The notes beneath the pieces are model-generated. The model ran no database searches and had not been told where the DNA came from. It saw only the letters and a list, made by a program, of their open reading frames with translations. Below, piece by piece: positions 6,570 to 11,006 of a stretch of 33,929 nucleotides of DNA; position 1 is the stretch's first letter, and every line of letters starts with the position of its first letter. The position numbers and the translations under genes are program-made. Where the stretch lies: the NCBI GenBank assembly GCA_024276355.1, contig JAJRXJ010000035.1, positions 1-33,929 on the forward strand, read 5' to 3'. The stretch is from Actinomycetes bacterium (GTDB taxonomy: Bacteria; Actinomycetota; Acidimicrobiia; Acidimicrobiales; Aldehydirespiratoraceae).

Positions 6570-7265
6570 AGGCCAACAGTACAACGAGTCGTATGGTTTT
6601 GATCGATCTGCCGACGATATTTTGACCGATTTGCGGAACCAAAAATGCTCGACTGGTCGAAATGCCTTCGCCCGGGTGGAGGAAGTGGTCGATGTGGCCG
6701 CTGTCATTGTCGGAGAACCAGCGGCGGATCTTGGCGCACGGGTCGGCCGGGGCGCTCAGCTGGCATCTCATGTCGCCGATTTCGACAATCATCCCGGCGT
6801 GGAGCTTTCGCCAATCGATCCCGCACACTGTGATGTTCTCACCGGCCACTCCCGCCGACAGCTCGTGGCCTTCAGCGTTCAGTTCGGTGATCACATCGTT
6901 GCTCTACAAACACAGGGCCTGCCACGGTCGGCCGTGATGTTTGCGGGTGCTCTGCCGATCACCGATCACACCACGACGACCTGTGGAGGAGCTCCCGCCC
7001 CGGACGCGGACACCTCGCCGGCGATGTCGATGAGGTGGTGCCAGAGCTGGTGGACAGCCTCGCGGGACGCCCGCTCGATGCTCCGAGAATCGACCGACGA
7101 CCACGATGAGGCGCCCGGAAGCGTGTCCACCAGGTCCGGATCGACTCTGCGCAGTGGCTCGGCCCACAATTCGATGAGCTGTCCGGCGAGCCGAAGGGTG
7201 TTGACGGTGTCCTGGTCGTTCCATTCGTCGGGGTCGAACCCGCACTCTCGGCATCTGTCGGTCAT
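6562..7265 (-). pseudogene. Decayed DinB-like/MOSC-domain fusion gene
   Basis: N-terminus MTDRCRECGFDPDEW and ASREAVHQLWHHLIDIAGE (DinB/DUF664-like) in one frame. GVIGDRQSTRKHHGRPWQALCL lies in another frame, then an in-frame TAG (plus-strand cta 6904-6906), then SNDVITELNAEGHELSAGVAGENITVCGIDW...HIDHFLHPG (MOSC-like) in that same second frame. Confidence 0.75.
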
Positions 7266-7912
7266 CGGAGGCTGAACCCCACGACTGCTTCGAGTTCGGC
7301 GATCGCCTCTGACGGGTCGGTCACCTTGATGGTGGTCATTCCCATGGCTCTGGCCGGTTTCAGGTTGACACCAAGGTCGTCGAGAAACACACACTCCTCC
7401 GGGGCGACGCCGAGGGCTTCGCAGGCAATCTCGTAGAACCTCGGCTCCGGCTTGCGAACACCGACCACACTCGACTCGATCACATGATCGAACATCTCGC
7501 GGATGGAGGCGATCGCCGGATCCGTCTGGGCGGCTGCGGGGTCACGAAAGTTGTTGGTGAGCATGGCGGTCTTGAGTCGCTTGCCGCACTCCTCCACTGC
7601 CCTGACCATCCGGGGCCTGATCGAGCCACGGAGCCCGGCCAGGATCCGCGTGGCATCAACCTCGAATCCATGGACCCGGGCCTCGGACTCGAAAACGGAG
7701 ACGAAACCCGCGGCGTCGAGCTCCCCTCTTTCGAATCTGGCCCAGGCATTCGAGTCGGGATCGGTCGAGTTGAGCCGACGGATCGTGTCGCTTGGGAGGC
7801 CCGCTTCCTGCTCGTAGGCGTTGAACGCCTCGAACGGGCTGGAGAGGATCACACCACCGAAATCGAACAGGGCTGCACGTATCACGTCGGCAGCGTAGAT
7901 GGATCGGGTCAT
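7262..7912 (-). CDS. HAD-superfamily hydrolase
   Basis: MTRSIYAADVIRAALFDFGGVILSSPF...MLTNNF...VVGVRKPEPRFYEIACEALGVAPEECVFLDDLGVNLKPARAMGMTTIKV matches HAD motifs I-IV. The stop overlaps the following MTDRC start by 4 nt (ATGA). Confidence 0.92.
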   Translation of the reverse strand: MTRSIYAADVIRAALFDFGGVILSSPFEAFNAYEQEAGLPSDTIRRLNSTDPDSNAWARFERGELDAAGFVSVFESEARVHGFEVDATRILAGLRGSIRPRMVRAVEECGKRLKTAMLTNNFRDPAAAQTDPAIASIREMFDHVIESSVVGVRKPEPRFYEIACEALGVAPEECVFLDDLGVNLKPARAMGMTTIKVTDPSEAIAELEAVVGFSLR

Positions 7913-7946: not shown

Positions 7947-9263
7947 ATGCCCAAAGGCCACGCCGTTGTCGACGGATCCAACATTGCCACCGAAGGCCGC
8001 AACACACCGAGCCTCTCGCAGCTCGATGAAGCGGTCACCGAATTCATCGAAAGGCACGACTTCGAACACGTCACGGTGATCGTCGACGCCAGTTTCGAAC
8101 ATCGCGTCGAACCCCACGAAGTCAAAGCCGCCCAAGAGGCCATCGAGGGCCGTGAGATAATCACCCCGCCCGCCGGGGTGATCGGCCGCGGTGATGCTTT
8201 CATCCTCGAGGTTGCCGACCGCGCCAACGCCGTCGTTTTGTCCAACGACTCGTTCCAGGAGTTCCACGGCACCTACGACTGGCTGTTCGACGATGGCCGT
8301 TTGATCGGCGGTAAGCCGATTCCCGGGGTCGGCTGGGTATTCGTGACCCGTTCCCCGGTCCGGGGACCAATCAGCCGTCGGGCCGTGCGCGAGGCCAACG
8401 CGGTTGAACCCCCACCCGCCAACCCCAAGGTGGGCGACACCCGACGGGTCCGCAAGGCCACCAAGAAGACCCCGTCGAAGCGTGCCGCTGCCGAAAAGCC
8501 GACGCCTAGGGTTTCCAAGAAAACGGCCAAGTCCGATGGCCCCAAGGCATCGCGCGGCCGCAAGCAGCCGGCCGGGGCCAACACGAAGTCGGTGATGAAG
8601 AGCTTCCGACGCGACTATCCGGAAGGCAGCACGGTTGCCGTGTTGGTCGAGAGCTTCTCATCACATGGCGCCTACGGCTCGGTCGACGGCGTGAGTGTTT
8701 ACATACCTCTGCGTCTGCTGGGCGATCCCGCCCCGAGAAGGGCAAGAGACGTGATCGAGATCGGCGAGACCCGCGACTTCATCGTCCACGCCTTCGACGA
8801 AAAGCGCATGAGCATCGATGTGGGGACCCTCCCCTTCGCGGAGGGAGACGCCACCACAGATTCCGCCGACGAGACCAAGCGCCCGACGCGAAGGGGCGCG
8901 ACCAAGAAGACCACCAAGAAGGCCGTCGCGAAGAAGGCCACCCCGGCCAAGAAGACCGTCAAGAAGAAGGCGGTCGCGAAGAAGGCCACCCCGGCCCAAG
9001 AGACTGCCGCCAGGAAGACGCCGGCCAGGAAGGCGCCCGCCAAGAAGAAGACCACCGCCAAGAAGGCCGCTCCAGCCAAGAAGACAACCGCGGCGAGCAA
9101 GGCCGCTCCGGCCAAGAAGGCCACGACCAAGAAGGCCCCCGCCAAGAGGGCGTCGGCCAAGAAGAAGACCGCCGCCGTGAAACCGACTGCCAAGAAGGCG
9201 TCGGCCAGAAAAGCCACCAAGAAGAAGACCACCACACGGAAGGCCGCTTCAGGGCTGCGCTGA
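7947..9263 (+). CDS. NYN/Zc3h12a-like ribonuclease domain, S1-like segment and histone H1-like Lys/Ala-rich tail
   Basis: [14 protein letters not shown]...[12 protein letters not shown]...[27 protein letters not shown] (NYN/PIN-like acidic residues). Then [40 protein letters not shown]...[19 protein letters not shown]. Then a long AKKAxPAKK-type tail to the stop. Confidence 0.85.
8881..9257 (+). repeat. Degenerate coding repeat for Lys/Ala/Pro/Thr-rich (AKKA/PAKK) H1-like tail
   Basis: Recurrent 'gccaagaagaag / aaggccaccccggccaagaag' units encoding [27 protein letters not shown]... Confidence 0.8.
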
Positions 9264-9305: not shown

Positions 9306-11006
9306 ATGGCCGCACAGTTCATCTTCACCATGCACAAGGTCGGCAGGTTCATCCCGCCCAACCGCGACGTGCTCAAGGACATCACCCTCGCCTTCTATCC
9401 GGGTGCGAAGATAGGGGTGCTCGGCCCCAACGGTGCCGGAAAGTCGACCCTTCTCAAGATCATGGCCGGTGTCGACGACGGCTACACCGGCACCGCGAAG
9501 CTCACCGGCGGCTTCACCGTCGGGATGCTCGAGCAGGAACCCCACCTCGACGAGGCCAAGGACGTGCTCGGCAACGTGATGGACGGTGCCGGCGAAGCTG
9601 CCAACCTGCTCGCCGAATACGACGAGGTGATGGCCGGCTGGTCGGATCCGGAAGCCGACTACGAGAAATTGGGCGCCAAGCAGGCCGACATCGAATCGAA
9701 GATCGAGGCCCTGGGCGCGTGGGACCTGCAACGAAACGTCGAGATCGCCATGGACGCGTTGCGCACACCGCCATCCCATTCGCCGGTGAGCAACCTGTCG
9801 GGTGGTGAACGAAGGCGGGTCGCATTGGCCCGCCTGTTGCTGTCGAAACCCGACCTGTTGCTTCTCGACGAGCCCACCAACCATCTCGACGCCGAATCGG
9901 TTGCCTGGCTCGAACGAGCTCTGCAGGACTACGCCGGCACCGTGGTGGCCATCACCCATGATCGCTACTTCCTCGACAATGTGGCCGAGTGGATCCTCGA
10001 ACTCGACCACGGCCGCGGCTATCCGTTCGAAGGCAACTACAGCGGGTTCCTCGAGCAGAAGGAGGCCCGGCTCGCCTCCGAGCAGAAGGCCGACGATGCC
10101 CGTCGACGCACCCTCAAGCACGAACTCGAGTGGGTACGCATGGCCCCCAAGGCCCGGCAGGCCAAAGGAAAGGCCCGATTGGCTGCCTACGACAAGTTGC
10201 TCGAAGAGGCCCGGGCCGCCGAGGGCAGATCCGCCGACCTCGAGATCGTCATCCCCGTCGACTCGAGGCTCGGCGATGTGGTCATCGAAGCCGACTCGAT
10301 CTCGAAGGGCTTCGACGACAAGCTGCTCATCGAGAATCTCTCGTTCTCCCTTCCCCCGGCCGGCATCGTGGGCGTGATCGGAGCCAACGGTGCCGGAAAG
10401 TCGACGCTGTTCAAGATGATCATCGATGCTGCCGAGGGCAAGTCCGACAGCGCCTACTCACCCGATTCGGGCACGCTGCGAATTGGCCCGACCGTCACCC
10501 TCGGTTACGTCGACCAGGACCGCACCCTCGATCCCGACAAGACCGTCTACGAGGAGATCACCGGCGGTGTCGACAATCTCGAGGTCGGCGGCCGCGAAAT
10601 ACACGGCCGGGCCTACGTGGCATCGTTCAACTTCAAGGGAGCAGACCAACAGAAGAAGGTCGGCACCCTCTCGGGAGGCGAACGCAACCGTGTGCATTTG
10701 GCCAAGGTGCTCAAGGAAGGCGCCAACGTGCTGTTGCTCGACGAACCCACCAACGATCTCGATGTCGACACCCTTCGCGCGCTAGAGGACGCGGTCGAGG
10801 CATATGCCGGCTGCGCGGTGATCGTGAGCCATGATCGTTGGTTCCTCGACCGGGTCGCCACCCACATTCTGGCCTTCGAGGGCGACTCGGTGGTGAGATG
10901 GTTCGAAGGCAACTTCACCGAGTACTCCGACTACCGCAAGCGCGAACACGGCGTCGACGCCATGCGTCCTCAGCGCATCAAGTACAAGCCGGTGTCACGG
11001 GGCTGA
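9306..11006 (+). CDS. ettA: Energy-dependent translational throttle protein EttA (ABC-F ATPase)
   Basis: Two ABC modules (GPNGAGKST...LSGGERRRVALARLLLSKPDLLLLDEPTNHLDAES; GANGAGKSTLF...LSGGERNRVHLAKVLKEGANVLLLDEPTNDLDVDTL). EttA-type N-terminus. Confidence 0.96.
   Translation: MAAQFIFTMHKVGRFIPPNRDVLKDITLAFYPGAKIGVLGPNGAGKSTLLKIMAGVDDGYTGTAKLTGGFTVGMLEQEPHLDEAKDVLGNVMDGAGEAANLLAEYDEVMAGWSDPEADYEKLGAKQADIESKIEALGAWDLQRNVEIAMDALRTPPSHSPVSNLSGGERRRVALARLLLSKPDLLLLDEPTNHLDAESVAWLERALQDYAGTVVAITHDRYFLDNVAEWILELDHGRGYPFEGNYSGFLEQKEARLASEQKADDARRRTLKHELEWVRMAPKARQAKGKARLAAYDKLLEEARAAEGRSADLEIVIPVDSRLGDVVIEADSISKGFDDKLLIENLSFSLPPAGIVGVIGANGAGKSTLFKMIIDAAEGKSDSAYSPDSGTLRIGPTVTLGYVDQDRTLDPDKTVYEEITGGVDNLEVGGREIHGRAYVASFNFKGADQQKKVGTLSGGERNRVHLAKVLKEGANVLLLDEPTNDLDVDTLRALEDAVEAYAGCAVIVSHDRWFLDRVATHILAFEGDSVVRWFEGNFTEYSDYRKREHGVDAMRPQRIKYKPVSRG

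Follow-up and report, generated by a model that had tools for sequence, protein, structure and literature searches.

A predicted NYN-S1 ribonuclease of Acidimicrobiia with a lysine/alanine-rich tail, and its putative counterpart as a nested histone H1-like gene in relatives

RESULTS

Organization of the locus

The window, by which we mean the whole stretch of 33,929 nucleotides analysed here, carries on its forward strand, at positions 7947–9263, a gene for a protein of 438 aa composed of an NYN domain, a linker, an S1 domain and a Lys/Ala tail. The initial annotation had described an open reading frame with NYN-type, S1-like and Lys/Ala-rich parts, and all of these lie at the coordinates it gave, as do the motifs VVDGSNIA, VIVDAS, RGDAF and VLSNDSF. 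Homologues share the start and the frame. An upstream ATG at 7899 is unlikely to be the start: relatives start at the methionine of MPKG. The gene is present as a single copy in the source genome. In the AlphaFold2 model, two confident domains (residues 1–152 and 214–298, with pLDDT above 90 across most of both) are separated by a basic linker predicted to be disordered (residues 153–213, positions 8403–8585, forward strand), which holds 18 Lys or Arg among 61 residues and has low pLDDT at 164–206.

A gene for a HAD-like hydrolase (7262–7912, reverse strand) lies head-to-head with the NYN-S1 gene, the two starts being 34 nt apart, and is divergent in roughly half of the homologues. AGGAG precedes the first start of the ribonuclease gene in only 3% of cases, and this start is possibly leaderless.

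On the other side, 43 nt past the stop codon, begins ettA (9306–11006, forward strand), encoding the translational throttle ABC-F protein EttA; its identity is supported by a TIGR03719 score of 880.6 bits for a cut-off of 807. The adjacency to ettA pointed out in the initial annotation is thus real in the window, and it recurs in several families, but it is missing in about three quarters of homologues. Of 124 homologues with enough sequence, 32 have ettA on the 3′ side in the same orientation, at 12–217 nt in 30 and at 2.2 kb in two. A strict dependence was ruled out: many genomes have ettA without the NYN-S1 gene, and some have the NYN-S1 gene without ettA. Since each gene occurs without the other, a functional tie between them is possible but not strict. 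Within the window's family (f1), genomes G006, G007, G008, G016, G021, G031 and G035 have neither an NYN-S1 gene nor a close ettA; other f1 genomes are without the NYN-S1 gene only.

A Regnase-like NYN domain followed by an S1 domain

The NYN/PIN domain (residues 1–152, positions 7947–8402, forward strand) was recognized by Pfam profile PF11977 (RNase_Zc3h12a) at residues 5–107, with 41.3 bits against a curated cut-off of 23 (E = 1.6e-10). The same profile matched 38 of 38 relatives (E ≤ 1, best 2.9e-11). The model of this region, for which an NYN fold had been proposed from the letters, is indeed predicted as an NYN/PIN fold, and Foldseek retrieved with it the PIN domains of Regnase-1 and ZC3H12C (E about 1e-6; for the Regnase PIN domain, E = 1.6e-6 and a TM-score normalized to the target of 0.63).

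The acidic residues emphasized earlier turned out to be conserved: D9, D47, D83 and D101 are invariant across the 38 aligned relatives, as are N12, N100 and the GRGD and SNDSFQE motifs. Together, D9, N12, D47, D83, N100 and D101 form the candidate active site. Regnase-1 binds its metal through D141, D225, D226 and D244 (PMC12982082). In an alignment to ZC3H12C, D9, D83 and D101 occupy the positions of Regnase D141, D226 and D244, and N12 that of N144. The position of D225 is taken by Gly82, whereas the other three metal-binding Asp are aligned and invariant. From its fold and candidate residues the protein is likely a metal-dependent endoribonuclease of the NYN family, although the Gly at the D225 position speaks against this. 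Regnase and its ZC3H12A-D relatives carry a CCCH zinc finger; none was found beside the NYN domain by Pfam or by inspection of the window protein sequence, and RNA binding is predicted here to occur via the S1 domain and the basic tail. No YacP-type NYN profile matched the window protein or its relatives, PF11977 being the sole NYN match. Rae1/YacP shares the NYN superfamily and possibly a link to translation, but differs in NYN family. Rae1 is not known to have an S1 domain or a tail.

The second domain (residues 214–298, positions 8586–8840, forward strand) is predicted as a lead helix and a five-strand S1/OB barrel, with pLDDT above 90. Foldseek related it to S1 domains from ribosomal protein S1 of bacteria (E about 2e-5), and PF00575 matched 32 of the 38 relatives, the best at 3.6e-8. 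The S1-like character ascribed to this segment therefore holds for the modelled fold and for most relatives, but not at the level of a profile match in the window copy, where none was obtained at E ≤ 1.

The Lys/Ala tail

Residues 310–438 (positions 8874–9260, forward strand) form a tail of 129 residues with 40 Lys, 9 Arg and 36 Ala and a net charge of +48. Its matches to HC2 (PF07382, 30 bits for a cut-off of 40) and to NF038053 (37 bits for a cut-off of 80) both lie below the curated thresholds. The tail shares with Lys/Ala-rich nucleoid proteins of the HC2 or AlgP type the AKKA/PAKK repeat composition, the strong basicity and the disorder; it differs from them in scoring under the family cut-offs and in being fused to a ribonuclease gene, inside which its counterpart appears to be nested in relatives.

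Among 157 distinct homologues that join NYN and S1 in a single frame, 107 have a Lys/Arg-rich tail and 36 a tail of another kind. In the other 14, S1 is followed by fewer than 40 residues, in some cases because a contig ends there. Close homologues of the window protein do carry the tail. A split layout, in which NYN-S1 stops and is followed by a Lys/Ala gene, was found in none of 12 homologues whose Lys/Ala tail is short or missing. Judged from these comparisons, NYN and S1 are the core of the protein and the tail is an add-on, since 14 of the 157 homologues stop near S1.

Metagenome contigs were seen to end inside the Lys/Ala repeat at L002, L007, L008, L018, L205 and G003:C12; since such breaks are repeated, the NYN-S1 locus is under-assembled in public genomes. 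Two further sequences, L043 and L072, show frame shifts within the repeats (ending in EGRQEGSGKE or RPRRRR), for which repeat slippage or assembly error are both possible.

Distribution in Acidimicrobiia

Of 61 near genomes, 42 contained relatives recognized by a search with the NYN part. With an NYN-S1 profile, 167 of 248 genomes of the order were positive at E ≤ 0.001, several of these matches being weak (E about 1e-5), and class-wide 94 of 295 genomes were positive at E ≤ 1e-15. In a 247-genome sample of the phylum, no NYN+S1 protein from outside the class was present among the matches listed. Since the outside-class matches listed are confined to the S1 part of the profile (from about position 220 onwards), as those of ordinary S1 proteins would be, the NYN+S1 combination looks specific to the class Acidimicrobiia. 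The protein is vertically inherited within this class. We found no literature on NYN+S1 proteins or on H1-like proteins in Acidimicrobiia.

An internal ribosome-binding site and start codon at the tail junction of relatives

In many relatives the tail begins with Met, Val or Leu followed by Ala-x-Lys-Lys, the first codon being ATG, GTG or TTG with AGGAGG or AAGGAG just 5′ of it. The nested-gene test, which was devised after this pattern had been noticed, was applied to 94 homologues in which the junction was set independently, with a threshold Shine-Dalgarno (SD) energy of -7 kcal/mol or better. An internal start with an SD was present in 39 of the 94, compared to 19.0 ± 2.7 expected from synonymous reshuffling. 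The same scan elsewhere in the genes gave 7.2%, and the other two frames gave 3 and 0.

In a larger set, 53 homologues carry the site, and 45 of these have an AGGAG core. The 45 fall into about 11 family-level groups; two more groups are doubtful, their members among the 45 being L045 (f11) and L090 (f16). In these 45 homologues an in-frame start is found at the tail junction or close to it, with AGGAG 11–15 nt 5′ of the start (17–20 nt in two cases). The start is GTG in 29, ATG in 15 and TTG in 1, and residue 2 of the predicted internal product is Ala in 39. Many of the genomes are metagenome assemblies that break in repeats; several site-bearing ones are complete or consist of a single-contig chromosome (Aquihabitans sp. 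G128, our L014; G038, G122 and G172).

The AGGAG core occurs in two codon phases across lineages (32 versus 13). One lineage, for example, encodes AEEAP there, and others TRRSEP, LTRSNI or TRSTHD. A protein-level motif as sole cause of the junction was rejected on account of this variation of SD phase. The rare Arg codons AGG and AGA are concentrated in the seven codons before the start (20 of 27, versus 162 of 1717 in the remainder of these genes; Fisher P = 4e-15). Local RNA folding near the internal start is weaker (-6.6 versus -10.5 kcal/mol), and third positions around it are richer in A/T (0.33 versus 0.21). AGGAG was found 5′ of 55 of 478 in-frame tail starts, compared to 28 of 2501 starts within NYN, linker and S1 and to 5 of 295 in a frame +1 control. 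The two phases, the rare Arg codons, the reduced folding and the control rates argue for selection on the DNA and not on the peptide. Sites of the EEAP type are weak when taken singly, because GAG dominates among Glu codons and SD-like sequence is then frequent by synonymous reshuffling.

Between S1 and the internal start, the reading frame is open over all 1961 linker codons, which indicates that the fused form is also kept. The free products predicted from closed genes are 43–206 aa long (median 111); Lys makes up 35% and Ala 36% of them. What the initial annotation had missed is that the add-on tail appears, in much of the order, to have its own ribosome-binding site and start codon; there, it is probably also made as a separate H1-like protein.

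Stand-alone H1-like genes

Stand-alone genes that are almost wholly Lys/Ala were found in 11 of 42 genomes that lack the site (families f7, f23 and f78) versus 0 of 38 that have it, in a survey that used the NF038053 profile only, a weak one of limited sensitivity, and compared few families. The contrast has P = 0.0005 (P = 0.00005 for f7 and f23 alone), for rows that are not independent by descent. Most f23 stand-alone genes begin GTG-GCT/GCA-ACN, preceded by AAGGAGGGAAA and similar sequences, so that AAGGAGG or a similar motif lies 5′ of the start as in the nested ones. These beginnings are very like those of nested starts, for instance GTG-GCA-ACC-AAG-AAG, so that one kind of gene appears to occur both nested and free.

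In site-bearing genomes the profile matches are tailed HU, DksA/TraR, PhaF-like and other proteins. No stand-alone H1-like gene was found 5′ of ettA where the NYN gene is missing, nor, by the profile search, elsewhere in the window's genome. The matches there were instead a DksA/TraR-type protein and a glyceraldehyde-3-phosphate dehydrogenase (GAPDH), both with Lys/Ala extensions. In the former (L232; window genome G000, contig C87, 1202–1960) the extension is long, Lys/Ala-rich and N-terminal; L234, L241, L242 and L299 are further proteins of this build, which occurs in the window's genome and in relatives. The latter (L233; G000 C233, 1137–2264, minus strand) ends in a C-terminal AKKAPAKK tail and is thus a glycolytic enzyme bearing a polycation of the nucleic-acid type. 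A 186-aa ORF on the minus strand of G480 C89 (L285) encodes a RidA-like protein whose C terminus is a Lys/Ala tail.

The junction in the window and the history of the site

About 45 relatives have a start codon and a Shine-Dalgarno sequence at the boundary of the C-terminal part; the window copy does not. Its tail junction (8886–8909, forward strand; compared with L002, L003 and L004) reads ACG CGA AGG GGC GCG ACC AAG AAG. It contains no start codon, and a lone AGG Arg codon is left where relatives hold the internal ribosome-binding site and start. At the same place, the nearest relative, L002 of the same genus, reads ACA AGG AGA CTG ACA GTG GCC ACA GCG AAG AAG.

A tree of NYN+S1 built with FastTree shows the site to be clade-coherent among Lys/Ala-tailed rows, with 13 changes for a shuffled mean of 35 and a minimum of 29. 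It is near-universal in families f52, f43, f3, f20 and f18 and in a large part of f24; nearly all of f7 and most of f1 lack it. Loss of the internal start in the window's species seems the simplest reading of these sequences, the choice of loss over non-gain depending on a single near relative (L002) and on the tree placement. With the internal start lost, the window copy would make the fusion only. The retention of the tail without the internal start in f1 suggests that the tail serves the enzyme itself.

DISCUSSION

We consider it quite likely that the gene encodes a three-part ribonuclease whose tail derives from a nested H1-like gene, with two products in relatives and the fusion only in the window's species. 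The NYN endoribonuclease would be held by its S1 domain and polycationic tail on RNA, either mRNA or ribosomes, possibly nascent transcripts; the initial annotation had proposed tethering to the nucleoid or to RNA. The tail would derive from an in-frame, histone-H1-like gene nested in the 3′ end of the ribonuclease gene. In relatives with the site, ribosomes would make from one reading frame both the long tailed ribonuclease and a free H1-like protein, and internal initiation would set the ratio of free tail to ribonuclease. In the window's species the internal start would be gone, leaving the fused form alone. For much of the order Acidimicrobiales, it is probable that a complete H1-like gene nested in the ribonuclease gene yields a tail-tethered enzyme and a free nucleoid-type protein of identical sequence, that the H1-like gene is either nested or stand-alone but not both, and that some lineages, that of the window among them, lost the free form and have the fusion only.

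A comparable arrangement is known for Cas11b, a C-terminal subunit produced from an in-frame internal start in cas8b (PMC11899642). Common to both cases is a single reading frame whose C-terminal part is also made alone, as predicted here. The present gene differs in that it is not a CRISPR gene, that the product would be an H1-like basic protein and that internal translation is predicted from sequence.

The junction could instead be a conserved peptide (EEAP-M-A, a linker or a protease site), its SD-like DNA being a by-product of codon choice and the tail existing only bound to the ribonuclease. Such a peptide would fit the largest class of sites, where the usual codons spell Glu-Glu as GAGGAG, the 19 of 94 sites that reshuffling produces by chance, and the long tail kept without an internal start by the window and most of its family. 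It is unlikely, however, given that AAGGAG stands elsewhere in the other codon phase, over unrelated residues and rare AGG/AGA codons, that start codons follow the SD at canonical spacing and that stand-alone genes with a like beginning exist in related lineages. A neutral expansion of low-complexity sequence by slippage seems still less plausible, indeed very improbable, as an account of the tail. Repeat length does vary, the frame is shifted in some tails (L043 and L072) and 14 of 157 homologues are tailless; yet a Lys/Arg-rich tail occurs class-wide, in 107 of the 157, the junction at which it starts is a defined one, and in the same genomes other proteins related to nucleic acids bear tails of a similar kind.

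A different question is where the enzyme would act. It might be mainly a ribosome-associated quality-control nuclease linked to EttA, cutting mRNA on translating ribosomes in the manner of Rae1/YacP, with a tail that binds rRNA and not the nucleoid. We regard this as possible but less likely than not. The S1 domain and a basic tail suited to RNA speak for it, as do the position of ettA directly 3′ in several families and the role of Rae1/YacP, cited in PMC11346440 as an NYN nuclease in ribosome-dependent mRNA decay. The NYN domain, however, belongs to PF11977 and not to the YacP type, and ettA and the NYN-S1 gene do not strictly accompany each other.

If the nested-gene reading is true, many species have a strongly basic protein of the chromatin type that standard annotation overlooks, and a single gene would join RNA decay to translation, through the neighbouring ettA, and to the packaging of nucleoid or RNA. 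The natural series of nested, stand-alone and fused-only forms would then make it directly testable whether actinobacterial Lys/Ala tails function for the enzyme, for the chromosome or for both.
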